The notes under the pieces were generated by a model. That model had not been told where the DNA came from and ran no database searches. It saw only the letters and a list, made by a program, of their open reading frames with translations. Position numbers and translations under genes: made by a program. Source: Sulfurimonas sp. (GTDB lineage: Bacteria; Campylobacterota; Campylobacteria; Campylobacterales; Sulfurimonadaceae). Taken from it: DNA of 17,652 nucleotides. How positions within the stretch are numbered: position 1 is the stretch's first letter; each line of letters begins with the position of its first letter. The stretch lies in assembly GCA_027063585.1 (NCBI GenBank), contig JAMORM010000201.1, forward strand, positions 1-17,652. The letters are read 5' to 3'. Below are positions 4,118 to 17,652 of this stretch, one piece after another.

Positions 4118-6244
4118 CTAAAAGATTTTCATTCGTATAAATTTTTCACTCTCCATTGCTAACATAAGAAGCAGAGCAATAGATATTAAAAGAAGCCAGA
4201 TAGACGAATCAACTGGTTTAAGTCCTAAAACAGATTGCATAAAGGGGTTATACATACTAAAAAGATGAATACCAAAGGCACCCAGTACAGACATCCATAA
4301 GAATTTGTTCTGTTTATGATTAATTTTAAAAAGAAAATTATTTTCACTGCGTGAATTAAAAACATGCACATTTTCAAATAAAACCATCAGCAGTAGAGTG
4401 ATATTTCTAGCGGCATCCACTGCATATCCGGCATTGAGCAAAATATAAAAAAGGGAAAATGCTGCAAGCCCCATATAAAGACCTGCTACCATCACTCTGC
4501 TAATCATCGGCTTGTTAAAAATCGGCTCTTTTGGACTGCGAGGTTTACGTTTTAAAACGCCGGGTTCTCCTTTTTCAAGTCCGAGTGCCACATCTTGAAT
4601 ACCGTTTGTTACGAGATTGAGCCACAACAACTGTATAGGAAGCAGAGGGATTGGCAAGGCAAACAATATGGCAAGAAAGACAAGAACAATTTCTGCAAAT
4701 CCGGTAGATATAAGTAAATAGATGACTTTTCGAATATTATCATATGCAATTCTTCCCTCTTCGATACCGCTGATAATAGAACCGAAAAAATCATCTGTTA
4801 AAATAAGGTCACTCGATTCTCTGGCAACATCTGTGCCGCTTTTTCCCATCGCTATACCGATATTTGCGCTTTTTAATGCAGGGGCATCATTGACACCGTC
4901 TCCGGTAACAGCAACAAAATCTCCCGCATCTTGAAAAGCATTTACAATAATCTGTTTTTGCTCGGGTGAGACTCTTGCAAAAACTTTTTTATTGCTTATT
5001 AGCTCTTGAGTATTGCCTCTTTCTTGCGCATGCGTGAGTGAAAGTCCTTCTATTACTTCTTCTTTGTTAATTGCAATGCCCAGTTCTTTTGCAATAAAAT
5101 AGGCTGTATTTGGATGGTCTCCCGTTACCATTACAACATTTACACCGGCTTCTTGGGCGATTTGTACCGCCTCATGGACACCTTCTCTTAACGGGTCTAT
5201 AATTGTTACAAAACCAAGGTAAGTGTAGTCGCTCTCGGCTATTGTTTCTTGCCTGTTTTGTTTGTATGCGAGGGCAATGTTTCTAAAGCCTTTTTGTGCC
5301 CATTGGTTTACCGTATTTAGAATATGCTCTTTTTGTGCAGGCTTGAGAGAAGATTTATTTATAATGATTTCAGGGGCACCTTTTATAAAATCAAAAGTTT
5401 CCATATCTATCGTGCATTTAACGGCAGCATATCCGTTTTGCGGTTCATAAGGGATTTCCTGCAAAGGTTTGATATGTCGATATTTTTGAAAGAGTTCACT
5501 GTTTACATGTAACACATAGCGCATAAGTGCAACATCTACCTGATCTCCTAGTATTTCCAGTGTATCATTTTTTTGCACGATTGTCGCTTCGTTGCACAGC
5601 ATGGCACAAAGCAGGGTTTTTGTGTGTGTATCATTATCTTCATTGAGTGCTATGAAATTTTCAACGCTCAGCATATTTTGGGTCATGGTTCCTGTTTTAT
5701 CGCTGGCAATTAAAGTACAAGAGCCTAATCCTTCAATGGCAGAGAGTTTTCGTACGATCACGTTTCGTCTGCTCATTGCAGCACTTGCATTACTGAGAGC
5801 CACCGTAATGGCTATAGGCAGTCCTTCGGGTGTAGCCGAAACAGCCAGCGCAACGGTAAAGAAAAATATCTCTTTTAGTCCTACACCTTGGTAGATACCT
5901 ATAAATATAATAATGACAATGACAACGGCAAGAATTTTTAATATATTGAACGAAAATTTTTCCATACGAATCACCAGCGGTGGTTTTGCGACATGGGCAG
6001 TGAGTAAAAGTTCAGAAATTTTTCCGACTTGTGTTTGAGATGCTATTGCCGTGACAACCCCTGTTGCTCTGCCTTTTGTGACAAGTGAACCTGCATAGAG
6101 CATATTTTTTCTCTGGGCAACCGGTTCGTCGATATCGGCAGATATATAATTTGCGTCTTTGTTGACATCTATGGATTCTCCCGTAAGAAGCGATTCATTC
6201 ACAAATAAATTTTTACTTTGTATCAGTCGGACATCCGCAGGCAC
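4118..6244 (-). CDS. P2-type cation-transporting ATPase, C-terminal part of a frameshifted gene
   Basis: This 708-residue frame carries most of a P-type ATPase: the A-domain loop TGES (21-24), M4 motif PEGLP (139-143), phosphorylation site DKTGT with Asp182, GDGVNDAPALKSANIGIAMG in the hinge of the P domain, and six C-terminal membrane helices. PEGLP places it in the P2 group (Ca2+, Na+ or mixed). Against the Ca2+ sites of SERCA, by eye, the M5 Asn position is Gly (STGFAE) and the M6 Asp position is Asn (NLVTNG), so calcium specificity is doubtful. The nominal GTG at 6244 is only the first start codon in this frame and lies inside the A domain, with no good ribosome binding site. The real N-terminus is the 6223-6672 frame; joined, they give about 851 residues, the normal size. 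It is broken by one base, or expressed through slippage. Confidence 0.88.
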   Translation of the reverse strand: MPADVRLIQSKNLFVNESLLTGESIDVNKDANYISADIDEPVAQRKNMLYAGSLVTKGRATGVVTAIASQTQVGKISELLLTAHVAKPPLVIRMEKFSFNILKILAVVIVIIIFIGIYQGVGLKEIFFFTVALAVSATPEGLPIAITVALSNASAAMSRRNVIVRKLSAIEGLGSCTLIASDKTGTMTQNMLSVENFIALNEDNDTHTKTLLCAMLCNEATIVQKNDTLEILGDQVDVALMRYVLHVNSELFQKYRHIKPLQEIPYEPQNGYAAVKCTIDMETFDFIKGAPEIIINKSSLKPAQKEHILNTVNQWAQKGFRNIALAYKQNRQETIAESDYTYLGFVTIIDPLREGVHEAVQIAQEAGVNVVMVTGDHPNTAYFIAKELGIAINKEEVIEGLSLTHAQERGNTQELISNKKVFARVSPEQKQIIVNAFQDAGDFVAVTGDGVNDAPALKSANIGIAMGKSGTDVARESSDLILTDDFFGSIISGIEEGRIAYDNIRKVIYLLISTGFAEIVLVFLAILFALPIPLLPIQLLWLNLVTNGIQDVALGLEKGEPGVLKRKPRSPKEPIFNKPMISRVMVAGLYMGLAAFSLFYILLNAGYAVDAARNITLLLMVLFENVHVFNSRSENNFLFKINHKQNKFLWMSVLGAFGIHLFSMYNPFMQSVLGLKPVDSSIWLLLISIALLLMLAMESEKFIRMKIF

Positions 6245-6672
6245 TTTGACTCCCGATTCAAAAAAAGTATGTCTCCTACCGTGACGTCTTCGCTTGGTAT
6301 TTCTCGCTTTTTCCCGTCCCTAAGTACATAAACATAGGTTTTAATCATTTTTTTGAGAGCCTGTGCACTCTTGTTGGCTTGATACTCTTGATATGTTCCT
6401 ATAACTGCATTAATGAGAAGAACGGCGACAATGAATCCGGCATCGCTGAACTCTTTAATAGCAACAGATACTACGGCCGCAATGATTAAAACATATATAA
6501 TCGGATTTGTAAATTGTTGTAAAAATATTTGAAGCAGAGTTGCTTGCCTGCCTTGGGGGAGTATATTTTTCCCAAAATGTTTTTGTCTTATTTGTACTTC
6601 TTGAGTCGTTAACCCTTTGGGGGTAGTATTTATATCTTCAAGTGTAGCTTGAACAGTTTTTGTGTGGAACAT
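6223..6672 (-). CDS. P2-type cation-transporting ATPase, N-terminal part of a frameshifted gene
   Basis: The 149-residue frame begins with a cation-ATPase N-terminal domain (GLTTQEVQIRQKHFGKNIL), then M1 (about 52-74), M2 (77-95) and the start of the A domain up to VGDILF. After residue 137 it continues out of frame for about 11 residues and stops. The next conserved residues, ESGVKVPADVRLI, are read in the -1 frame, which continues as the 4118-6244 frame. The start is well supported by AAGGAGA before the ATG and a TATAAT at 6706-6701. Alone, this piece could not be an active transporter. It is divergent from the Cys-repeat peptide gene at 6860. Confidence 0.85.
   Translation of the reverse strand: MFHTKTVQATLEDINTTPKGLTTQEVQIRQKHFGKNILPQGRQATLLQIFLQQFTNPIIYVLIIAAVVSVAIKEFSDAGFIVAVLLINAVIGTYQEYQANKSAQALKKMIKTYVYVLRDGKKREIPSEDVTVGDILFLNRESKCLRMSD
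6260..6266 (-). other. Frameshift site in the P2 ATPase gene (run of seven A; T on the coding strand)
   Basis: The coding strand reads ATA CTT TTT TTG AAT in the upstream frame, where the family expects VGDILFxESGVKVPADV. One more T in the run, or a -1 slip on U UUU UUG, gives exactly GAA TCG GGA GTC AAA GTG CCT GCG GAT (E S G V K V P A D). The defect is therefore a one-base contraction, homopolymer phase variation, transcriptional or ribosomal slippage, or a sequencing error. Confidence 0.85.
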
Positions 6673-6859: not shown

Positions 6860-7144
6860 ATGAAAAAGTTAAATTTAACAGCACTACTTTTAGGAGCAGC
6901 TTTATTTACGGGTTTAGGTGCAGTTTCACTCAGTGCAAGCGATATGAAATGTGGTGCGGGTAAATGTGGTTCTTCTATGAAAGCACCTGCAAAAAAATGC
7001 GGTGCTTCAATGAAAAAAGAGGGCAAAAAGTGTGGAGCTTCAATGAAAAAAGAGGGTAAAAAATGCGGTGCTTCAATGAAAGAAATGAAAAAAGAGAAGA
7101 AAAAAGCCGGAAAATGCGGAAAAGGTAAGTGTGGCGCTAAATAA
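6860..7144 (+). CDS. Exported Cys/Lys/Met-repeat peptide, HvfA-like metallophore precursor candidate
   Basis: This 94-residue protein has a Sec signal peptide (1-26, cleavage probably after LSA) and then a low-complexity mature region of Lys, Gly, Cys, Met and Ala. All seven Cys (31, 36, 47, 58, 69, 86, 91) sit in K-C-G. Cys36, 47, 58 and 69 are spaced exactly 11 residues apart, in repeats of the type KKCGASMKKEG. This resembles precursors of the HvfA/bufferin type, small exported proteins with EGKCG repeats whose Cys are modified by an MNIO (DUF692) enzyme to bind copper; here the repeat reads EGKKCG or AGKCG rather than canonical EGKCG. The DoxX protein downstream supports the link, but no maturase is nearby. 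Without modification it could be a simple metal- or thiol-buffering peptide. It appears to have its own promoter and terminator. Confidence 0.85.
   Translation: MKKLNLTALLLGAALFTGLGAVSLSASDMKCGAGKCGSSMKAPAKKCGASMKKEGKKCGASMKKEGKKCGASMKEMKKEKKKAGKCGKGKCGAK
6992..7090 (+). repeat. Three 33-base coding repeats (11 residues each)
   Basis: The units lie at 6992-7024, 7025-7057 and 7058-7090 and encode KKCGASMKKEG, KKCGASMKKEG and KKCGASMKEMK. The first two units differ only at third codon positions (for example TGC GGT against TGT GGA), so the protein repeat is conserved more tightly than the DNA. Confidence 0.85.
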
Positions 7145-7155
7145 GTCTTACTTTT

Positions 7156-7179
7156 TATAACAGAGTTTTCTCTGTTATA
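7156..7179 (+). terminator. Hairpin terminator after the Cys-repeat peptide
   Basis: TATAACAGAG and CTCTGTTATA form a perfect 10-bp stem around a TTTT loop, 12 bases after the stop codon, followed by a modestly T-rich stretch (TTTCT). It probably ends or attenuates the peptide transcript before the DoxX gene; a high peptide-to-enzyme ratio would suit a RiPP precursor. Confidence 0.6.
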
Positions 7180-7335
7180 TTTCTAATCTCATTGAATCTT
7201 TTGCAAAGATAACTTTCCCTTGATACTTTTTTCATATTTTTCTCTTTTTTTTCTAAAGTATAGCACAAATGTATACTGCACACTTACTACACAAAGCAGA
7301 GATAAAATACTTTTATAAAACTTAAGGAGTTTGTT

Positions 7336-7776
7336 ATGAATATTAAAAAAACATATCTTGAATTTTCACGTTTAGGCGAGTATTTAAAATCGCTCAGTCT
7401 CCTTTTTGCAAGGTTATTGGTAGCCTACGGTTTTTATGAACCTGCTATGATGAAGTGGAATGATATGAAGTCGGTTGCCGAATGGTTTGGTTCTATGGGT
7501 ATTCCTTTTCCGACACTTAATGCTTATATGGCTGCCAGTACGGAAATAGCAGGGATAGTCTTACTTACTTTAGGACTTTTTACGAGAATTATCTCTATTC
7601 CTATGATTATAATTATGATAGTTGCCATAGTAACGGTGCATTTGCATAACGGCTTTTCTGCGGGAGATAACGGTTTTGAAATTCCACTCTACTATATGGC
7701 ATTTTTGTTGATATTTTTTTCACACGGTGCCGGTAAATTTTCCTTAGACAGACTTATCTTTGGAGAGAAAAATTAA
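7336..7776 (+). CDS. DoxX-family membrane protein, HvfX-like
   Basis: The 146-residue inner-membrane protein has four hydrophobic segments (about 20-37, 65-82, 86-104 and 117-132), the DoxX arrangement. The conserved features RLLVAYGFYEPAMMKW, WFGSMGIPFPTLNAY and NGFEIPLYYMAF are, from memory of the family, those of DoxX proteins found in hvfABC-type copper RiPP operons and called HvfX, rather than of archaeal DoxD/DoxX quinone-linked oxidases. Its exact biochemical role is not known. The start has AAGGAG six bases upstream. The FMN enzyme follows after three bases, so the pair is co-translated. A plausible -10 (TAAAAT, 7303-7308) lies upstream, so the pair may be transcribed separately from the peptide gene. 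Confidence 0.88.
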   Translation: MNIKKTYLEFSRLGEYLKSLSLLFARLLVAYGFYEPAMMKWNDMKSVAEWFGSMGIPFPTLNAYMAASTEIAGIVLLTLGLFTRIISIPMIIIMIVAIVTVHLHNGFSAGDNGFEIPLYYMAFLLIFFSHGAGKFSLDRLIFGEKN

Positions 7777-7779
7777 AAG

Positions 7780-9531
7780 ATGGAAGCCTTAGTCCATTTC
7801 ACACATAAAATAGGGGAAATACATTTTCCTATATTGATGTTTTTACTCAAAGCATTTTTTATTCTTTTTATTGTTGTGTCCATTGTTTTGTTTATATATG
7901 ACAGATATATTCAAAGAGAGAATCAGCTGCTTATCAATTATCCGTTAATCGGTCGTATACGTTATTTGTTCTATGCACTTCGCGACCCAATGCGTCAGTA
8001 CTTCGGAGATGAAAAGTTTTATGAATCGTTTGACAAAGTAAAATGGGTGTATGATTCTGCTGAGCGTAAATCGGCGTATGCCTCTTTTTCTCCCGGGCAA
8101 CCTCAGCAAAGCGCAAGATTGGGGTTAAAAAATGCTAATTGTGTGCTTAATACTCAGGATGTAAATGATGATTTTTCCGTGACCTTCGGCGAAAATTGTG
8201 CGCATCCTTTTAAAACAAGTTCCGTCTTTGGGCGAAGTGCTATGAGTGACGGTGCAATTTCCCCTGAGGGAACGCGCTCCTTTACTAAAGGAGCGTATCT
8301 TGGGAAGTTCCCTATAAATACAGGAGAAGGTAGCCTCACTTCAAACTTTTTTTATACCCATAAATATACAAGAGAATGTAAATTTTTCGAAACATATGAG
8401 GGAACATTTTTTGCAAAAGGTGTTTATAAAATAATCAAATTACTGCTCAATGAAATTATAGCAAGAAAAGTGTATAAACATATGGTTGTTTACTGTGCAG
8501 CTCAAGACAGTTATTTGTTTGATACAAGTGAATTGGTTTTTTACAGAGTGAATTGGGATGCTCCTATATCTACATTTCCTTCACGGGTACCGGATGATAT
8601 GCCTGATATTATTTTTCAAATTGGGAGTGGCTTATACGGCGTACGTGACACGAAAGGTAATTTTTGTGAAGAACGGTATCAAAAAACAATGCGGTTTTGT
8701 AAAATGACAGAAATAAAAATGGCTCAAGGGGCAAAACAAACGGGAGGAAAGCTACTTGCTACCAAAGTAAGTGAAGAGATTGCATATTATCGTGGAGTAG
8801 AAGCGCATAAAGATTTGTTTTCTCCAAATCAGTTTCCTTTTGCGCATACGATAGAAGAACTTTTTGACTTTATGGGCAGACTAAAAGTGCTGTCGGGGAA
8901 ACCGGTAGGCGTAAAAATTGTCATATCTTCACAAGAAAACTTTACGCAATATGCAAACTTATTCAAAGAGCGTTTACATGCAGGTTCTAATGCTTATCCT
9001 GATTTTATAACCATTGACGGTGGAGACGGCGGTAGCGGTGCGGCACCGTTGGAGATGATGATGAGTGTCGGTATGACTATAACAAAGGCACTCTATATTG
9101 CGGACAGTGAACTAAAAAAAGTCGGGGTACGAGAAAATGTTAAACTGATTGCAAGTGAAAAAGTTTTAACGCCTGATGATGCCATGGTTCTTTTTGGTTT
9201 GGGTGCAGATTATATAGCTATAGCACGAGCATTTATGATGAGTGCGGGGTGTATACGCGCACGTGAGTGTTCCGGAGCACACGGTCGTGCCTGCCCCGTC
9301 GGTTTGGCAACACAAGACAAGAAAAAAAGAGCTTCTTTTTTAGTAGAGAAAAAAGCGAGAAATATTGCATCGTATCATGGACAATTACTCTCGGGAATAA
9401 GAGAACTTCTTGCCATAATGGGGTTAGACCATATATCTAAGTTAAGTAAAGAGAATCTTATTTTTAGAGATTACAGTGGAAAAACATATATGAATGTCGA
9501 TACCTACTTTGAGGAGTCTTTAATAAATTAA
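7780..9531 (+). CDS. Membrane-anchored FMN-binding glutamate synthase-family protein
   Basis: This 583-residue protein has one N-terminal membrane helix (about 17-40) and a cytoplasmic region homologous to the FMN/Fe-S synthase domain of glutamate synthase large subunit. Visible motifs are NTGEGSLTSN (180-189), IIFQIGSGLYGVRD (277-290), KMAQGAKQTGGKL (313-325), the FMN-binding ITIDGGDGGSGAAP (410-423), and the cluster motif with Cys491, Cys497 and Cys505. The glutaminase and C-terminal structural domains of true GltB are absent, so it is not ordinary glutamate synthase. About 80 residues (roughly 191-273) lie between two motifs that are close together in typical family members, and the Cys spacing C-x5-C-x7-C is longer than I recall for GltB. 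Substrate is unknown. It is tightly coupled to the DoxX gene. Confidence 0.88.
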   Translation: MEALVHFTHKIGEIHFPILMFLLKAFFILFIVVSIVLFIYDRYIQRENQLLINYPLIGRIRYLFYALRDPMRQYFGDEKFYESFDKVKWVYDSAERKSAYASFSPGQPQQSARLGLKNANCVLNTQDVNDDFSVTFGENCAHPFKTSSVFGRSAMSDGAISPEGTRSFTKGAYLGKFPINTGEGSLTSNFFYTHKYTRECKFFETYEGTFFAKGVYKIIKLLLNEIIARKVYKHMVVYCAAQDSYLFDTSELVFYRVNWDAPISTFPSRVPDDMPDIIFQIGSGLYGVRDTKGNFCEERYQKTMRFCKMTEIKMAQGAKQTGGKLLATKVSEEIAYYRGVEAHKDLFSPNQFPFAHTIEELFDFMGRLKVLSGKPVGVKIVISSQENFTQYANLFKERLHAGSNAYPDFITIDGGDGGSGAAPLEMMMSVGMTITKALYIADSELKKVGVRENVKLIASEKVLTPDDAMVLFGLGADYIAIARAFMMSAGCIRARECSGAHGRACPVGLATQDKKKRASFLVEKKARNIASYHGQLLSGIRELLAIMGLDHISKLSKENLIFRDYSGKTYMNVDTYFEESLIN

Positions 9532-9562
9532 ATTATTACACAATCGTTGCACATATTTTAAG

Positions 9563-9580
9563 TATAATAATTGTAACAAT
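9563..9580 (+). promoter_or_regulatory. Candidate promoter with palindrome at the start site
   Basis: TATAAT (9563-9568) is followed at once by the perfect inverted repeat ATTGTAACAAT (9570-9580), centred near the predicted transcription start. This is a plausible repressor site for the genes from 9600 onward. AAGGAGG (9588-9594) lies five bases before the ATG at 9600. Confidence 0.4.
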
Positions 9581-9599
9581 AGAAAAAAAGGAGGATGGT

Positions 9600-9791
9600 A
9601 TGTGTATCCCTCATGGTGCCACGCGCACAATCAATACAGGCTTTGTAAAAGAAAAAAAGTCAAAAAAACATATAAAAAAACCTTCAAAATGTATGCTTGA
9701 AAAAGGTGATCCTGATTTTGTGGATGAGCGTAAGACTGTTGATGAAAATAAAAAAGAAGAGTCACTCTTTGACAAACTTTTTAAAGATTAA
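9600..9791 (+). CDS. Small Lys-rich protein of unknown function
   Basis: The 63-residue protein has no signal peptide or membrane helix. It begins MCIPHGATRTINTGF, has a Lys-rich middle (KEKKSKKHIKKPSK), a second Cys at about 31 and an acidic/basic C-terminus ending LFDKLFKD. I do not recognise a family. A strong AAGGAGG site before the ATG, a promoter-like region just upstream, and a three-base gap to the next gene argue that it is real. The two Cys and two His could bind a metal, but there is no recognisable motif. Its position first in the GMC-oxidoreductase unit suggests an accessory or assembly role. Confidence 0.7.
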   Translation: MCIPHGATRTINTGFVKEKKSKKHIKKPSKCMLEKGDPDFVDERKTVDENKKEESLFDKLFKD

Positions 9792-9794
9792 GTA

Positions 9795-10289
9795 ATGCTG
9801 TCATTGCAATCAAGAAGAAATTTTTTAAAAGCAGGGTTTTTATCAAGTACCGTTTTTATAATGGAGGGATGTAATCTTTTTGCCGTGACAACACCTATGC
9901 AAACACTGGGGTTAATGCATAAAGATTTGTTCCCTCAGGCACAAGAACTTGGCATAAAAACCGCTTCGTATATGAATATAGTATTTAACCACAGTCGTAT
10001 TAGCGATGCAGATAAAACTTTTTTAAAAAATGGGGTAAAATGGTTGAATGAAGAGGCTGTAAAAATGTATAAAAAAGAGTACGTAAAACTTTCTGCATTA
10101 CAAAGACAAAAGGTTCTTGCTAGTGTGACGCAAACAGAGTGGGGTAACAGTTTTGTGTATGATGTGATGAACTATATGTTTGAAGCAATGCTCGGTGATT
10201 CCGTATACGGTGGGAATAACCATGAAGCCGGTTGGAAATGGCTGCAGTTTGAAGGTGGAAAACCGCGTCCAAAACAAGCTTACATGTAA
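9795..10289 (+). CDS. Gluconate 2-dehydrogenase subunit 3-like protein with Tat signal
   Basis: The 164-residue protein begins with a twin-arginine signal (QSRRNFLKAGFLSS) and a hydrophobic stretch ending in EGC, so it is exported folded by Tat, possibly lipid-anchored at that Cys. The mature part resembles the gluconate 2-dehydrogenase subunit 3 family, the small periplasmic partner of GMC flavoprotein dehydrogenases: a helical region with DADKTFLKNGVKWLNEEA, then GNSFVYDVMNYMFEAMLGDSVYGGN and a C-terminal GWKWLQFEGGKPRP. In such complexes the flavoprotein lacks its own signal and is carried out with the small subunit. The GMC protein follows after 17 bases, consistent with this. No cytochrome c subunit is seen in the window. 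Confidence 0.85.
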   Translation: MLSLQSRRNFLKAGFLSSTVFIMEGCNLFAVTTPMQTLGLMHKDLFPQAQELGIKTASYMNIVFNHSRISDADKTFLKNGVKWLNEEAVKMYKKEYVKLSALQRQKVLASVTQTEWGNSFVYDVMNYMFEAMLGDSVYGGNNHEAGWKWLQFEGGKPRPKQAYM

Positions 10290-10306
10290 CGCAAGGAAGA
10301 ATAAGA

Positions 10307-11959
10307 ATGGTTGACATATGTATAATCGGCAGCGGAGCGGGTGGCTCGCCCATAGCCTATGAACTGGCAAATGCGGGATTTAGTGTCGTCGTTTTGGAAA
10401 AAGGAGAGGACTATACGGAGAGTGACTTTACCAAAGATGAAATAGGCGTTACGCGTCGTGATATGTTTACACCGCCTTTGAGTGAGCAAAAGCATATTAT
10501 TAACGAGTATAAGGCAGACGGTACATTTACACGGTATGACGGAGAAAAATCGGGCTGGAATTTTTGGAACGGTTCTATGGTCGGCGGTTCTTCAAACCTG
10601 ATGAGCGGATATTTTCACAGACTCAAGCCAAATGATTTCAAGCTTAAAAGTGTGTATGGTAAGATAAAAGATGCCAATGTGGTTGACTGGCCTATTAGTT
10701 ACGAAGATTTAGAACCTTACTACGACAAGGTAGAAAAAGTCGTGGGCGTGAGCGGTAAAATCGTGAAGCATAAGCATCTTGAACCACGCTCAAGTACAGA
10801 TTTGCCTTATCCTGAACTGCAGACAAACGGAGTGACACAGTGGTTTGATGCAGCTTGTAAAGTATTGGGCTATGAATCGATACCTACGCCACGTGCAATA
10901 TTGTCTCAAAATGCACTCGGACGAAACGCTTGCTATTACTCTAATTTCTGTGGAAGTTACGGTTGTGCAAGCGGTGCAAAAGGAAGCGGGCGTGCCGCCT
11001 TGCTGCAAAAATGCTCTGCAAAAATAATTACGGATGCTTTTGTCTATAAGCTCGAAAGTACAGACAAAAAAGTAACACGTGCCTATTACTATACAAAACG
11101 CGGTATCAGACATTCCATACAGGCGAAAATCTTTGTTGTGGCAGCACAGGCAATTGAGACCTCACGGCTTCTGCTTAATTCTAAAAACAAATATTTTCCA
11201 CAGGGTTTGGCAAATTCCAGCACAGAAGTCGGAAAAAACCTTATTTTTTCGGCAGGAGGCAGTGGCAGCGGACGATTTGTTTTTGAAAAACTGACACCGC
11301 AGCAGCAAAAAGAGCTGATGGAAGTCGGCGTCTTTTTTAACCGCTCTTTGCAGGACTGGTATGCGTATGAAAAAAATGACAAAGAATACAAGGGCGGAAC
11401 CATAGATTTTCTGTTTGAGCATCAAAATATTATTTCACGTGTGATGCGGGAAGTATATGATGAAAACGGAAATTTGATGTGGGGTGATGCGCTTGCCAAA
11501 AAAATTAAAAAACGCTTAACGACCTCAAGAGTGCTTACTTTTGAAGTTTTTAATGACTGGTTACCGACCGATAAATGTTTTGTGGGCGTAGATGCAAAGG
11601 CTAAAGACAAATACGGTGTGCCTGTGGGTGTTATAAATCTATACGGACATCCGCACGACTTGGAAGTTGGGGAATATTTGGCAAAAAAAAGTGTCGAAGT
11701 ATTACAAAAACTCGGCTGTGAGGAGATTGATTACTCCATCTCTTCTGCTCCACCGCCTAATCTTGTTGCAGGCGGATGCAGATTCGGTAATGATGCAAAA
11801 ATATCCGTACTGGACAAAAACTGTAAAGCACATGATTTAGAAAATCTGTATGTATCAGATGCTTCTTTTATGCCGACAGGCGGAAGTGTGCCATATACAT
11901 GGACGATTTATGCAAACGCATTTCGTATTGCAGATGTTATAAAAGCGCAGTTAGCGTAA
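10307..11959 (+). CDS. GMC-family flavoprotein oxidoreductase
   Basis: The 550-residue protein has an N-terminal FAD-binding Rossmann motif GSGAGG (8-13) with Glu31 at the end of the second strand, the GMC signature region GSMVGGSSNLMSGYFHR, a mid segment FCGSYGCASGAKGSGRAALL typical of the gluconate/alcohol dehydrogenase-like branch, and a C-terminal NLYVSDASFMPTGGSVPYTW. The family oxidises alcohol or sugar groups with FAD and passes electrons to a cytochrome or quinone. By eye, the usual catalytic His before the G-T-x-R-M-G motif aligns with Leu486 (PNLVAGGCRFG), and the usual His/Asn of NPTLTI aligns with Val528 (VPYTWTI). The substrate and even the chemistry are therefore uncertain. It has no signal of its own and probably travels with the Tat partner encoded upstream. 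Ribosome binding site: AAGGAA. Confidence 0.9.
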   Translation: MVDICIIGSGAGGSPIAYELANAGFSVVVLEKGEDYTESDFTKDEIGVTRRDMFTPPLSEQKHIINEYKADGTFTRYDGEKSGWNFWNGSMVGGSSNLMSGYFHRLKPNDFKLKSVYGKIKDANVVDWPISYEDLEPYYDKVEKVVGVSGKIVKHKHLEPRSSTDLPYPELQTNGVTQWFDAACKVLGYESIPTPRAILSQNALGRNACYYSNFCGSYGCASGAKGSGRAALLQKCSAKIITDAFVYKLESTDKKVTRAYYYTKRGIRHSIQAKIFVVAAQAIETSRLLLNSKNKYFPQGLANSSTEVGKNLIFSAGGSGSGRFVFEKLTPQQQKELMEVGVFFNRSLQDWYAYEKNDKEYKGGTIDFLFEHQNIISRVMREVYDENGNLMWGDALAKKIKKRLTTSRVLTFEVFNDWLPTDKCFVGVDAKAKDKYGVPVGVINLYGHPHDLEVGEYLAKKSVEVLQKLGCEEIDYSISSAPPPNLVAGGCRFGNDAKISVLDKNCKAHDLENLYVSDASFMPTGGSVPYTWTIYANAFRIADVIKAQLA

Positions 11960-12199: not shown

Positions 12200-13600
12200 A
12201 TGGCAAGAGTGAGATCGTACGGTGCAACAAAAGAAGTAACGGGTTCATGCCATGTGTTTAAAGTCAGCGGTGTGAAAATCATGATAGACTGCGGAATGTT
12301 TCAAGGCTCAGATGAAGATAAAAATGAGGAAGCCTTTTATTTTGAACCTGCGAGTATAGACTATCTTTTAGTGACACATGCGCACCTCGATCATATCGGG
12401 CGTATTCCTAAGCTTGTAAAAGAGGGTTTCAAGGGAAAAATTTATGCTACCTCTGCCACTATGGATTTGGCGCAGATAATTTTGATGGACAGCGCAAAAA
12501 TAATGAGTGAAGATTTTCAAACGCGTTATCGTAAAGCCTTGCGTAAAGGGAGAGAAAAAAAACTTTCAAAGCCGCTTTATCTGCCTTTGGATGTAGAAAA
12601 AACATTTCAATCTATAGAATGGGTGAACCCTGAATATGACAAATATTATGATTTATGCGAAGGTGTTAGCTTTATCTACCGTAATGCGGGTCATATATTA
12701 GGTTCTGCTTTTATAGAACTTTCATATATGGAAAATAGCGATTCGCATACCATAGTATTTTCCGGAGATATTGGCAACAATAACGGCTTGGTAATGCCTA
12801 ATTTGAATAAATGCGATAAAACACAGAGCCTTTATGTGGAAACAACCTATGGAGACAGAGACCACAGGTCTATAGATGAGACACTTAAAGAATTTAAAGA
12901 TGTTGTTGTAAAAACTTTAAATAATCACGGCAATGTCTTGATTCCCTCTTTTGCGGTGGAGAGAACACAGGAATTATTATGTATTTTGCGAGACATGTAT
13001 GAAAGTGGCGAGTTGCCTAAATGTAAGGTCTTTTTGGATTCTCCAATGGCAACACGCGCTACGGTCGTGTATCGCAATTATGTTGAAGAACTGACAAATA
13101 AATGTCAGCAAAATGTTGAAGAAGACGGCACTGTTTTTAATTTTGACTCACTTATATATACCGAAACACCGGAAGCTTCAAAAGGTATCAATGATATAAA
13201 AAGCCGTGCTATTATCATTGCCGGAGCGGGCATGTGCAACGGAGGAAGAATTACACATCACTTCAAACATAGAATCTGGGATAAACGCAATGCCGTAGTT
13301 TTTGTAGGGTTTCAGGCGGAGGGAACACTCGGACGTGAAATAGTTGATGGAGCAAAATGGATAAATATTTTGGGTGAAGATATTATTGTCAAAGCTTCTA
13401 TTCATACGATTAACGGTTTTTCTGCGCATGCTGACAGAGACGGAATTGTTGAGTGGATTTCAAGCATGAAAGATTTGCAAAAAGTATTTTTAGTGCACGG
13501 AGAATTAAAGAGTCAAAAATCATTTAAAAAGATGTTGAAAAAAGAGTTGAATTTGAATGCGCATATTGTATCTTTTAAAGAGAAAATAGTCCTTGATTAA
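12200..13600 (+). CDS. Metallo-beta-lactamase/beta-CASP RNA-processing nuclease
   Basis: The 466-residue protein belongs to the cytoplasmic MBL-beta-CASP ribonuclease group (YSH1/CPSF73-like bacterial members). Zinc ligands are visible: HAHLDH (60-65), His165 in NAGHILGSA and Asp190 in FSGDIG. The beta-CASP motifs follow: Asp/Glu in ETTYGDR (214-220), His410 in GFSAHAD, and His433 in VHGE. Also seen are SPMA (281-284) and GMCNGGR (344-350). Expected activity is endo- and/or exonucleolytic RNA cleavage with two zinc ions; target RNAs are unknown. It is distinct from RNase J, which has an additional C-terminal domain and is longer. The gene is monocistronic, with a promoter and inverted repeat upstream and a terminator at its end. 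Confidence 0.93.
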   Translation: MARVRSYGATKEVTGSCHVFKVSGVKIMIDCGMFQGSDEDKNEEAFYFEPASIDYLLVTHAHLDHIGRIPKLVKEGFKGKIYATSATMDLAQIILMDSAKIMSEDFQTRYRKALRKGREKKLSKPLYLPLDVEKTFQSIEWVNPEYDKYYDLCEGVSFIYRNAGHILGSAFIELSYMENSDSHTIVFSGDIGNNNGLVMPNLNKCDKTQSLYVETTYGDRDHRSIDETLKEFKDVVVKTLNNHGNVLIPSFAVERTQELLCILRDMYESGELPKCKVFLDSPMATRATVVYRNYVEELTNKCQQNVEEDGTVFNFDSLIYTETPEASKGINDIKSRAIIIAGAGMCNGGRITHHFKHRIWDKRNAVVFVGFQAEGTLGREIVDGAKWINILGEDIIVKASIHTINGFSAHADRDGIVEWISSMKDLQKVFLVHGELKSQKSFKKMLKKELNLNAHIVSFKEKIVLD

Positions 13601-13610: not shown

Positions 13611-15899
13611 TTAAAGTTTTGTATTTTTCAAACGCAAAGCATTAGCAATGACGGACACAGAGCTAAAACTCATGGCTGCCGCCGCGATGATAGGTGAGAG
13701 AACAATCCCGAAAAACGGATAGAGTACACCTGCTGCAACGGGAACACCTGCACTGTTGTAAACAAAAGCAAAAAAGAGATTTTGTCTGATGTTTTTCATC
13801 GTAGCACGAGAAAGTCTAAGTACCTTTACTATGCCAAGCAGGTCTCCTTTTATAAGAGTTACTCCCGCACTTTCTATGGCTACATCTGTCCCTGTCCCCA
13901 TAGCAATACCGACATTAGCCTGTGCGAGTGCCGGAGCATCGTTAATGCCGTCACCCGCCATTGCAACAAGAGCACCTTTACTTTGAAGCTCTTTTATGAC
14001 ATCCGCTTTCCCGTCAGGTAAAACATTGGCATAGACTTCGGATATACCGAGTTTTTTAGCGACTGCATTGGCTGTAAATTCATTGTCTCCACTGAGCATT
14101 ACGACTGTTATGCCTTCATCATTTAATGTTTGTACAGCTTCAACGGAAGTTTCTTTTATAGGGTCTTCTATAGCAATAATCGCGCAATAATTATCATCAA
14201 TTGCCATAAAAATAATACCTTTGGCATCGTTTCGCATAGCATCTGCTTTTGCTTGAACGGCTTCAATGGAGACACCTTGTTCTTTTAAGAACTTTTCACT
14301 GCCTAAGAGTATCTTTTTGTCGTCAATTTGAGCGATAACGCCTTTGCCGGGAACTGCTTCAAAGTTGTCTACATTGATAAGTGCAATATTGGACTCTTTT
14401 GCATACTCTATAACGGACTGGGCAAGAGGATGTTCACTTGCTCTCTCTAGTGAAGCAGCATATTTTATGAGTTCGTTTGCATCATATCCTTCTGCTGTAA
14501 GAAAGTCAGTCACTTTTGGTTTTCCCTCTGTGAGTGTTCCTGTCTTATCTACTACCAAGGTATCTATCTTTTCCATTGTTTCTAAAGTTTTGGCATCTTT
14601 AATAAGTATACCCGAAAGTGCAGCGCGACCTGTTCCTACCATAATGGAAATCGGTGTAGCAAGTCCTAAGGCACACGGACAGGCAATGATTAAAACAGAA
14701 ACCGCTGCGACAATTGCATAAGCGAGTTGTGGCGAAGGCCCCCAAATATACCAGCCTACAAAGGCAAGAACGGCGGAAATAACGACAGCAGGCACAAAAT
14801 AACTCGAAACGGTATCGGCAAGCTGCTGAATCGGTGCACGAGAGCGTTGAGCTTGAGCTACCATTTGAACAATTTGGGCAAGCATCGTGTCTGAGCCTAC
14901 TTTTGTTGCTTGCATAATAAGCGTACCGTTTTTATTAATAGTCGCGCCTATAAGCGTATCTCCTACTGTTTTTTGTACAAGAACAGGCTCTCCCGTTATC
15001 ATAGATTCATCAATATTGCTTTGTCCCTCTACAACAACTCCGTCAACAGGGATTTTCTCTCCCGGTTTTACTCTGAGTTTATCTCCCGTATGGACGAGTT
15101 CAAGGCTTACATCTTCTTCATTTCCTGCCTCATCTATAATTCTATGTGCCTGTTTGGGTGCGAGGTTAAGTAATGTTTTTATAGCCGTATTGGTTTTGCT
15201 TCTTGCTCGAAGTTCAAGTACCTGTCCTAAAAGAACAAGGGCGGTAATAACAGCCGCTGCCTCAAAATAGACATGGACGACTCCCTCTTTCGTGTGCATA
15301 AGCGGTGGAAAAATCTCAGGAAAAAAGAGTGCGATTATACTGTAGATATACGCAGCTCCTACACCCATGGAAATTAGCGTAAACATATTTAAATTCCATG
15401 TTTTTATAGACTGATACCCTTTGACATAAAAAGGCCATCCACCCCAAAGAACGACAGGTGTTGCGAGAAAAAATTCAATCCACTGTATCGTTTGTGCACT
15501 CAGCCAAGAGGGAATATATTGTGGTGTTATATCGTTTACCATTGCAAGGATAAAAAGAGGAATAGAGAGCACCGTACTTATCCAAAAACGTCGACTCATA
15601 TCTTCAAGTTCATCATTCTTTTCTTCTGCCTGTACGGTAATAGGTTCAAGGTGCATACCGCATTTTGGGCAGTCGCCCGGTTCATCACGAATAATTTCTG
15701 GGTGCATCGGACAGGTGTATTGCGTTTTAATCGTCGGGAGTGCTTCGACCTCTTTTTCTAAGGTCATACCGCATTTAGGACAGTTCCCCGGATGATTCTG
15801 GTGAATTTCGGGATGCATCGGACAGGTATAAAAGACATTGCCTATCTCACAAGAATCATCCACACAGTAAATATTATCTTCTTTATTCTGTTCACTCAT
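13611..15899 (-). CDS. copA: Copper-exporting P1B-type ATPase with two HMBD motifs
   Basis: This 762-residue inner-membrane ATPase exports Cu(I) from the cytoplasm. In place of the usual HMA domain it has two N-terminal heavy-metal-binding domains of the HMBD type, residues 24-48 and 61-85, each with YTCPMHPEI...PGxCPKCGMxLE. Further motifs are TGEP (302-305), the metal-binding CPC in the membrane helix (407-409), DKTGT with phosphorylated Asp451, SEHPLA in the nucleotide domain and [13 protein letters not shown] plus HMBD indicates Cu(I)/Ag(I) rather than Zn/Cd. The ATG at 15899 follows GGAGGT at a six-base distance; 14 bases separate it from the SHOCT gene. It is last in the copper unit. 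An additional Cys pair lies upstream of HMBD1 (Cys12, Cys17). Confidence 0.95.
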
Positions 15900-16895: not shown

Positions 16896-17652
16896 TTACG
16901 CCACTATGACTTTTCTAAACATATCTGTCATGTGGTAAAGAAAATGACAGTGATATGCCCATGCCCCTTTTGCATCAACGGTGACACGAAAACTGATTTT
17001 TGAACCAGGTTGTGAGATAATGGTATGTTTCTTTACTAAATGGTTCTCATCTCCCGTTTCCAAATCACTCCATAGTCCATGCAGGTGCATAGGATGGTTC
17101 ATCATCGTATCGTTAATATAGGTAATTCGTAATCGTTCTCCATAATGAAATTCCAGCGGTTTTGCTTCATGGTAGGGGATGCCGTTAATTGACCACATGT
17201 AACGCTCCATATTGCCTGTAAGATGCAGAACTATTTCTCTGTCTGGGTACCTGTCCTCTTTGGTGGAGGCAAGAGAACGTAAATCTGCATAGCAGAGAAC
17301 TTTTCTGCCGTTGTTACGCAGTCCGACTCCCGGATCATCAAGTCTGTACTGTGGATTCATTGCCCGCATAGTGGTGCTTACATCCCATTTTATAGGTAGT
17401 TTAGTTAAAGGAATGGTTTTTTTCATAGACTTCATAGGCTTTTTTATGGACATATTCATATTGTTCATTTTTGCCATATCTTTACTCATGCCCATGTCTG
17501 CAAGAGTAAGTGCCTGACGCTTATCAAGTTTTGGTACATCTGCTAAAATATTTACGTCCGTTGAGAGATTTCCAAGTGCATACCCGCTTCTGTCTATGCT
17601 TTGGGCAAATATTGCATAGGCTTTGTCATCTTTTGGCTCTATGATAACATCA
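16896..17652 (-). CDS. pcoA: Copper-resistance multicopper oxidase PcoA/CopA, C-terminal part
   Basis: The frame is open to the right edge and gives 252 residues, the C-terminal part of a protein usually around 550-620 residues. The first visible residues, VIIEPKDDKAYAIFAQSIDRSGYA, and PKLDKRQALTLADMGMSKDM are typical of the CopA/PcoA periplasmic oxidase. A Met-rich linker (MGMSKDMAKMNNMNMS) follows. The C-terminal cupredoxin domain carries HPMHLHG and WAYHCHFLYHM, which hold the ligands of the type 1 and trinuclear copper sites, plus the axial Met in TDMF. It oxidises Cu(I) in the periplasm and is normally Tat-exported, though the signal lies outside the window. The ATG at 17495 is internal, not a start. 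It is upstream of and coupled to pcoB. Confidence 0.93.
   Translation of the reverse strand, partial: DVIIEPKDDKAYAIFAQSIDRSGYALGNLSTDVNILADVPKLDKRQALTLADMGMSKDMAKMNNMNMSIKKPMKSMKKTIPLTKLPIKWDVSTTMRAMNPQYRLDDPGVGLRNNGRKVLCYADLRSLASTKEDRYPDREIVLHLTGNMERYMWSINGIPYHEAKPLEFHYGERLRITYINDTMMNHPMHLHGLWSDLETGDENHLVKKHTIISQPGSKISFRVTVDAKGAWAYHCHFLYHMTDMFRKVIVA

Follow-up and report, generated by a model that had tools for sequence, protein, structure and literature searches.

A KCG-repeat peptide, an HvfX-type DoxX protein and a GDH3-GMC flavoprotein pair in Sulfurimonas: a possible MNIO-independent variant of the HvfA/bufferin-type metal-peptide system

Which enzyme, if any, acts on an HvfA-like cysteine-repeat peptide when the genome around it shows no MNIO maturase? 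The question is raised by a stretch of 17,652 nucleotides from Sulfurimonas sp. (contig C201, GenBank JAMORM010000201.1, assembly GCA_027063585.1), the whole of which we call the window. The source is a metagenome-assembled genome (MAG) of 1.53 Mb in 247 contigs, 73.4% complete. In HvfA and the bufferins, which are ribosomally synthesized and post-translationally modified peptide (RiPP) metallophores, the cysteines are converted to copper-binding 5-thiooxazole, and an HvfX-type DoxX protein is a frequent though not universal companion. Peptides bearing 5-thiooxazole show a UV band near 305 nm (PMC13097082). The window encodes an exported peptide of this look and such a DoxX protein, and a profile search of the MAG finds no match to MNIO (DUF692, PF05114) or to HvfC (DUF2063, PF09836), in agreement with a sequence-only reading that had seen neither in the locus. 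As far as genome sequence can tell, where MNIO is lacking the oxidoreductase that goes with the peptide is a GDH3-GMC flavoprotein pair, encoded just beyond the region (6860-9531) on which that reading had settled. The genes of the run are the following (FMN, flavin mononucleotide; FAD, flavin adenine dinucleotide; Tat, twin-arginine translocation).

6860..7144, + strand: exported, HvfA-like peptide of 94 amino acids with 7 Cys in Lys-Cys-Gly (KCG) repeats (NF050137, 20.4 bits, cut-off 19.5)
7336..7776, + strand: HvfX-type DoxX membrane protein of 146 amino acids (NF050144, 128 bits, cut-off 80)
7780..9531, + strand: FMN/Fe-S protein of 583 amino acids with a Glu_synthase domain (PF01645) and an N-terminal membrane stretch, probably an accessory partner of DoxX
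9600..9791, + strand: small conserved protein of 63 amino acids (members in 12/81 FMN loci by clustering)
9795..10289, + strand: Gluconate_2-dh3 (GDH3) small subunit (PF13618) with a twin-arginine N-terminus, RRNFLK, a probable Tat hitchhiker of GMC
10307..11959, + strand: GMC flavoprotein (Pfam) resembling FAD-glucose and fructose dehydrogenases, with C209, C215 and C220 kept and L486 and P529 at the catalytic positions

The three genes first noticed (peptide, DoxX and FMN protein, the last two 3 bases apart) are real; what had been overlooked is that the same-strand run extends past 9531 to 11959; the 63-residue protein, GDH3 and GMC follow after gaps of 68, 3 and 17 bases. The 63-residue protein has no match in Pfam, NCBIfam or PHROGs. 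The nearest relatives of the FMN protein are Sulfurimonas proteins.

The description of the peptide holds on recomputation. Its seven cysteines (residues 31, 36, 47, 58, 69, 86 and 91) all lie within KCG at spacings of 5, 11, 11, 11, 17 and 5, those at 36, 47, 58 and 69 forming an exact 11-residue period, and a hydrophobic stretch near the N-terminus (residues 4-22) is consistent with export. Its pass against NF050137, the HvfA family model, is marginal, and there is no exact EGKCG: the residues ahead of KCG are AG, KK and others, where the Buf_EGKCG bufferins have EG. Databases label at least two Sulfurimonas relatives of the peptide "HvfA family oxazolone/thioamide-modified RiPP metallophore". 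The DoxX protein exceeds the cut-off of the HvfX equivalog model NF050144, so that its HvfX-like character stands.

Does this gene company recur? We look at 298 Campylobacterota genomes, in which a search with a 15-row GMC alignment matches 49 at E 1e-30 or better and leaves 45 when four weak matches (G112, G168, G190 and G216, 116-120 bits) are set aside. A KCG peptide lies within 5 kb of GMC in 29 of the 45, DoxX in 23 (all 23 with KCG), an adjacent GDH3 in 40 and the FMN gene in 5, while MNIO is found in the fetched GMC locus of none (0/45). In two further genomes, G029 and G036, the gene directly upstream of GDH3 encodes an exported, Met-rich peptide with a looser KCG/KCN pattern. Our rule for KCG peptides picks 92 open reading frames from 161 fetched loci and none from the same sequences reversed, a control that tests the rule and not the frequency, since many loci were fetched for having such a match.

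The next question is "what accompanies the peptide when GMC does not?" Taking an NF050137 match at E 0.01 or better as the peptide, 32 of the 298 genomes are positive: 21 have GMC only, 9 MNIO only, 1 both and 1 neither (Fisher p 3.4e-6, where this and the other Fisher tests treat genomes as independent and ignore relatedness). The 28 genomes above the model's own cut-off divide as 18, 8, 1 and 1. MNIO or GMC is thus present in 31/32 positive genomes, as against 26/266 of the others, and likewise in 40 of the 42 HvfX-positive genomes, the exceptions being G139 and G251. The peptide negatives are uncertain, because NF050137 missed peptides of G143 and G254 that the KCG-peptide rule found; G249 has an NF050137 match and no KCG peptide by the rule in its locus. 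As a rough background only, an off-frame KCG nucleotide pattern (six N, not seven) matches 4/298 genomes. In these genome sequences, then, Campylobacterota KCG peptides accompany either the MNIO and HvfC pair or GMC, and rarely both.

Fifty genomes of the window's genus allow a second comparison, with the peptide called by the pattern KCGxxKCG (37/50 genomes; GMC in 32/50). Peptide and GMC are found together in 31, the peptide alone in 6, GMC alone in 1 and neither in 12 (p 1.7e-6); among the 35 genomes at least 90% complete the counts are 24, 3, 0 and 8 (p 7e-6). The six with the peptide alone are G319, whose KCG gene, DoxX and GDH3 run into a contig end within GDH3; G316 and G303, where the peptide gene lies less than 400 bases from one; and G308, G311 and G330, which are 68-88% complete.

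The peptide could owe its modification to an MNIO whose gene lies elsewhere or fell out of the incomplete assembly. Our MAG is just 73% complete, and 2 of the 50 genus genomes (G298 and G312) do possess MNIO, both along with GMC. MNIO is above cut-off in 13 of the 298 phylum genomes, with no match in the 18 of them that belong to the window's genus; of the 17 other than our own, each is listed as 99-100% complete and 12 have KCG peptides. The absence from 18/18 and 48/50 genus genomes indicates that the clade as such largely lacks MNIO and that this is not a mere assembly gap; we find an unseen MNIO a very improbable explanation here.

The arrangement is also not an accident of one clade. The genes come in several orders (KCG-DoxX-GDH3-GMC, KCG-GDH3-GMC and divergent pairs) on both sides of the GMC tree, where KCG linkage occurs on both deep branches with 7 changes when G029 and G036 are counted as linked and 8 otherwise; the tree has 44 rows and excludes G132, whose GMC gene (L183) is split into two pieces. 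On the HvfX/DoxX tree, which has few columns and many open forks, MNIO- and GMC-linked members are interleaved with 5 changes. It is the 5 changes on the HvfX tree together with the linkage on both GMC branches that speak against a single-clade pattern. We are highly confident, from these genome comparisons, that the exported KCG peptide, the HvfX-type DoxX and the Tat-type GDH3-GMC pair form a recurrent conserved unit in Campylobacterota.

The sequence-only reading had given the place of MNIO to the FMN/Fe-S protein. Its description of a membrane-anchored, glutamate synthase-like protein is sound: PF01645 Glu_synthase is matched at E 1.3e-60, no further Pfam domain is found, and a single strong hydrophobic stretch covers residues 21-39. 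Cys491, Cys497 and Cys505 are invariant in 14 aligned sequences and align with three cysteines of a glutamate synthase chain, which we take to be the Fe-S ligands of that chain. With the glutamate synthase large subunit the protein thus shares PF01645 and the cysteine trio; it differs in the trio's spacing (C-x5-C-x7-C, against C-x5-C-x4-C in the aligned chain), the absence of any other Pfam domain, the N-terminal membrane stretch and the pairing with DoxX.

To see whom this protein keeps company with, we use the best 80 genome loci from 113 confirmed relatives, many of them on short contigs. DoxX lies immediately upstream of the FMN gene on the same strand in 73/80, the peptide within 5 kb in 29/80, with none seen in the other 51, many of which are cut short, and GMC or GDH3 is in view in 17/80. 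Where 5 kb are available on both flanks, 12 of 25 loci have the peptide and 13 do not. Within the genus, the close type of FMN protein (above 1000 bits) is present in 9/50 genomes, all 9 of which have both KCG and GMC, and is missing from 28 of the 37 KCG-positive genomes (association with KCG, p 0.09); the distant type is unlinked to KCG (p 0.33). Across the phylum, a full-length FMN protein is found in 17/32 KCG genomes and 25/266 others, an association weaker than that of GMC (22/32 vs 23/266) or HvfX (23/32 vs 19/266).

An FMN/Fe-S maturase in place of MNIO would fit the DoxX pairing, the restriction of the close type to KCG- and GMC-positive genomes, the peptide in nearly half of the full-flank loci and the excess in KCG genomes of the phylum. 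It fits poorly with an FMN gene standing downstream of a complete KCG-MNIO-HvfC-DoxX set in G074 (L139) and in Hydrogenimonas (L051), with a Sulfurimonas MAG locus (L035) that holds peptide, DoxX, FMN, MNIO, HvfC, GDH3 and GMC all together, with the close type occurring in just 9 of the 37 KCG genus genomes, and with the loci that show no peptide; Glu_synthase is moreover the sole Pfam domain found, and the side of the membrane is itself deduced. On these locus and genome counts the positional stand-in is dropped as the leading explanation, and we consider it unlikely. The protein is probably an optional accessory partner of DoxX, and probably cytosolic. Two side observations concern its loci. 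An exported hydrolase of metallo-beta-lactamase fold (Lactamase_B_2, e.g., L046:1740-2633) lies within 3 kb of the FMN gene in 27/80, often divergent from the DoxX-FMN pair and with or without a KCG peptide, and a tandem pair of DoxX genes precedes the FMN gene in L052, L053, L057, L058, L071 and L085.

We turn our attention to the GMC protein. Among proteins of solved structure, FAD-glucose dehydrogenase and fructose dehydrogenase are its best matches. For BcGDH, the structure paper (PMC6719666) names Cys212, Cys218 and Cys222 as the [3Fe-4S] ligands and His476 with Asn519 as the probable catalytic residues, and describes the small subunit as a Tat hitchhiker. The window pair shares with BcGDH and fructose dehydrogenase a GMC catalytic subunit, a Tat hitchhiker and the three cluster cysteines (C209, C215 and C220 in the alignment), and the twin-arginine motif is present in 52 of 56 GDH3 family rows, some of them from the same species. 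Unlike in these dehydrogenases, His476 is replaced by L486 and Asn519 by P529, the genes are linked to a KCG peptide and DoxX, and a Pfam scan confined to ten proteins of the window finds no multihaem cytochrome c subunit. In the GMC family members read, the His position is Leu (44/44) and the Asn position is never Asn (44/44).

Is this then an ordinary sugar or gluconate dehydrogenase whose KCG neighbourhood is incidental? Its best solved relatives would say so. The loss of the His/Asn pair in every row disfavours that activity, and the scanned window proteins without a cytochrome subunit and the peptide within 5 kb in 29/45 GMC genomes argue the same way, so that we find the ordinary dehydrogenase quite improbable. 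We infer that this flavoprotein is exported, transfers electrons and acts on something other than an ordinary alcohol; the gene company makes thiols a natural candidate.

Further downstream in the window are two genes that the sequence-only reading had put down to copper resistance, and both are confirmed.

13611..15899, - strand: copper-type P1B ATPase (TIGR01511, 610 bits, cut-off 397)
16896..17651, - strand: multicopper oxidase, open at the window end (profile matches)

Elsewhere, a KCG-pair lipoprotein gene begins 13 bases after a copper ATPase gene (L131:3651-4025), the open frame of another overlaps the end of one (L132:4079-4501), and our own MAG encodes on contig C4 (L236:395-946) a Met-rich c-type cytochrome with a C-terminal KCGAGKCG tail. 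The copper genes of the window, the lipoproteins and the cytochrome tail make copper likely: copper, or a soft metal like it, is probably what the peptide binds, and KCG looks like a transferable metal-binding tail. The cytochrome gene adjoins an ArsR-like regulator, a permease and a TolC-like gene (named by eye), and more Met-rich c-type cytochromes with C-terminal KCG pairs are encoded at L219:5241-5948, L222:84-677 and L223:2789-3394. Two other features of the window stand apart from the peptide: a calcium-type P-ATPase in two overlapping reading frames (4118-6244 and 6223-6672, minus strand), and a beta-CASP nuclease at 12200-13600 whose score against NCBIfam's model for Cas14 (type VII), 396 bits, is under the cut-off of 800.

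The KCG peptide may also work without modification, as a periplasmic thiol buffer for metal, with DoxX, GMC and the FMN protein as co-regulated envelope redox enzymes for the same metal or oxidative stress that never touch it. KCG pairs that sit as tails on a Met-rich cytochrome and on lipoproteins do resemble plain metal ligands. On plasmid pSulSP (NZ_CP118374.1, L215) a KCG peptide gene, divergent from GDH3-GMC, has a two-component system and MsrPQ as neighbours, and both it and the GDH3-family gene carry the annotation "hypothetical". What an unmodified buffer leaves unexplained is the near-complementary distribution of MNIO and GMC among the KCG genomes of the phylum and their interchange beside HvfX, which suggest that an enzyme works on one and the same class of peptide. 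We regard the unmodified buffer as a serious possibility, at clearly less than even odds.

Our preferred reading is that the cluster at 6860-11959 is an MNIO-independent variant of the HvfA/bufferin-type metal-peptide system, with the peptide's cysteines as the substrate of a periplasmic FAD/Fe-S flavoprotein; we put it at roughly 45%, and that GMC acts on the peptide is held with the same slightly-below-even confidence. Several observations weigh against it. Eight GMC genomes have a KCG peptide just elsewhere in the genome (G289, G116, G163, G191, G288, G241, G291 and G292) and in 6 of the 45 none is found (G122, G145, G177, G199, G204 and G234), so GMC may have other substrates. The fetched stretch shows neither GMC nor GDH3 in 14 of the 29 KCG-bearing FMN loci; L051 among them has MNIO and several are cut by contig ends, but in L053, L057, L082, L085 and L086 each flank reaches 3 kb or more, or comes close to it. 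MNIO and GMC coexist in G292, G298, G312 and locus L035, so that their exclusion is not strict. The catalytic His/Asn pair is lost also in GMC members away from KCG genes, and its loss is therefore not specific evidence for the peptide. The independence of genomes assumed by the Fisher tests and the coarse DoxX tree count on the same side.

How might such a variant work? The GDH3-GMC complex would be moved folded into the periplasm, carrying FAD and [3Fe-4S], and would there encounter the Sec-exported peptide. GMC would oxidise the peptide cysteines, or their metal-bound state. From the Fe-S cluster, electrons would pass to DoxX and on to the quinone pool, a path standing in for the cytochrome c subunit of sugar dehydrogenases. 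That GMC is a true covalent maturase of the peptide is a tentative proposal, on the unlikely side; equally doubtful is its full form, a second, oxygen-independent route in which periplasmic FAD/[3Fe-4S] GMC, having lost the alcohol-oxidising pair, would oxidise the exported cysteines to thiooxazole-like or other dehydro forms, with electrons passing via HvfX/DoxX to quinone, and so replace the cytosolic O2-dependent MNIO, acting after export and not before.

Set beside known systems, the window shares with the MNIO-made RiPP metallophores (HvfA/oxazolin, fontiphorin and the Buf_EGKCG bufferins) an exported KCG-repeat peptide, an HvfX-type DoxX and nearby copper genes. It differs from HvfA and the bufferins in that no MNIO or HvfC is found and a Tat-type GMC-GDH3 pair is there instead. 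Some Campylobacterota relatives are complete MNIO operons, with peptides that share the KCGAGKCG core. A survey of more than 40,000 assembled genomes (PMC12452194) counts 67 of 2583 genomes with Buf_EGKCG precursors as lacking MNIO. Our literature searches found no report linking GMC or the FMN protein to KCG/HvfA peptides, a mention in the PNAS bufferin/HvfA papers remaining possible, and a word look-up finds the term GMC absent from PMC12452194, PMC13097082 and PMC12538549.

Databases give an HvfA-metallophore label to at least two Sulfurimonas peptides, yet the genus is mostly without MNIO; either those peptides are mislabelled or their modification falls to another enzyme. An exported flavin enzyme that in many bacteria of the phylum takes the place of MNIO, an iron enzyme that uses oxygen, suggests that HvfA-like peptides may be made or handled by a second, undescribed route, and in the GMC pair there is a definite candidate, open to test, for the missing modifying enzyme. 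If the proposal is true, it would suggest that the uncharacterised HvfX/DoxX serves as an outlet for electrons, and it would account for the use of this class of peptide by bacteria of oxygen-poor habitats though the known maturase activates O2.

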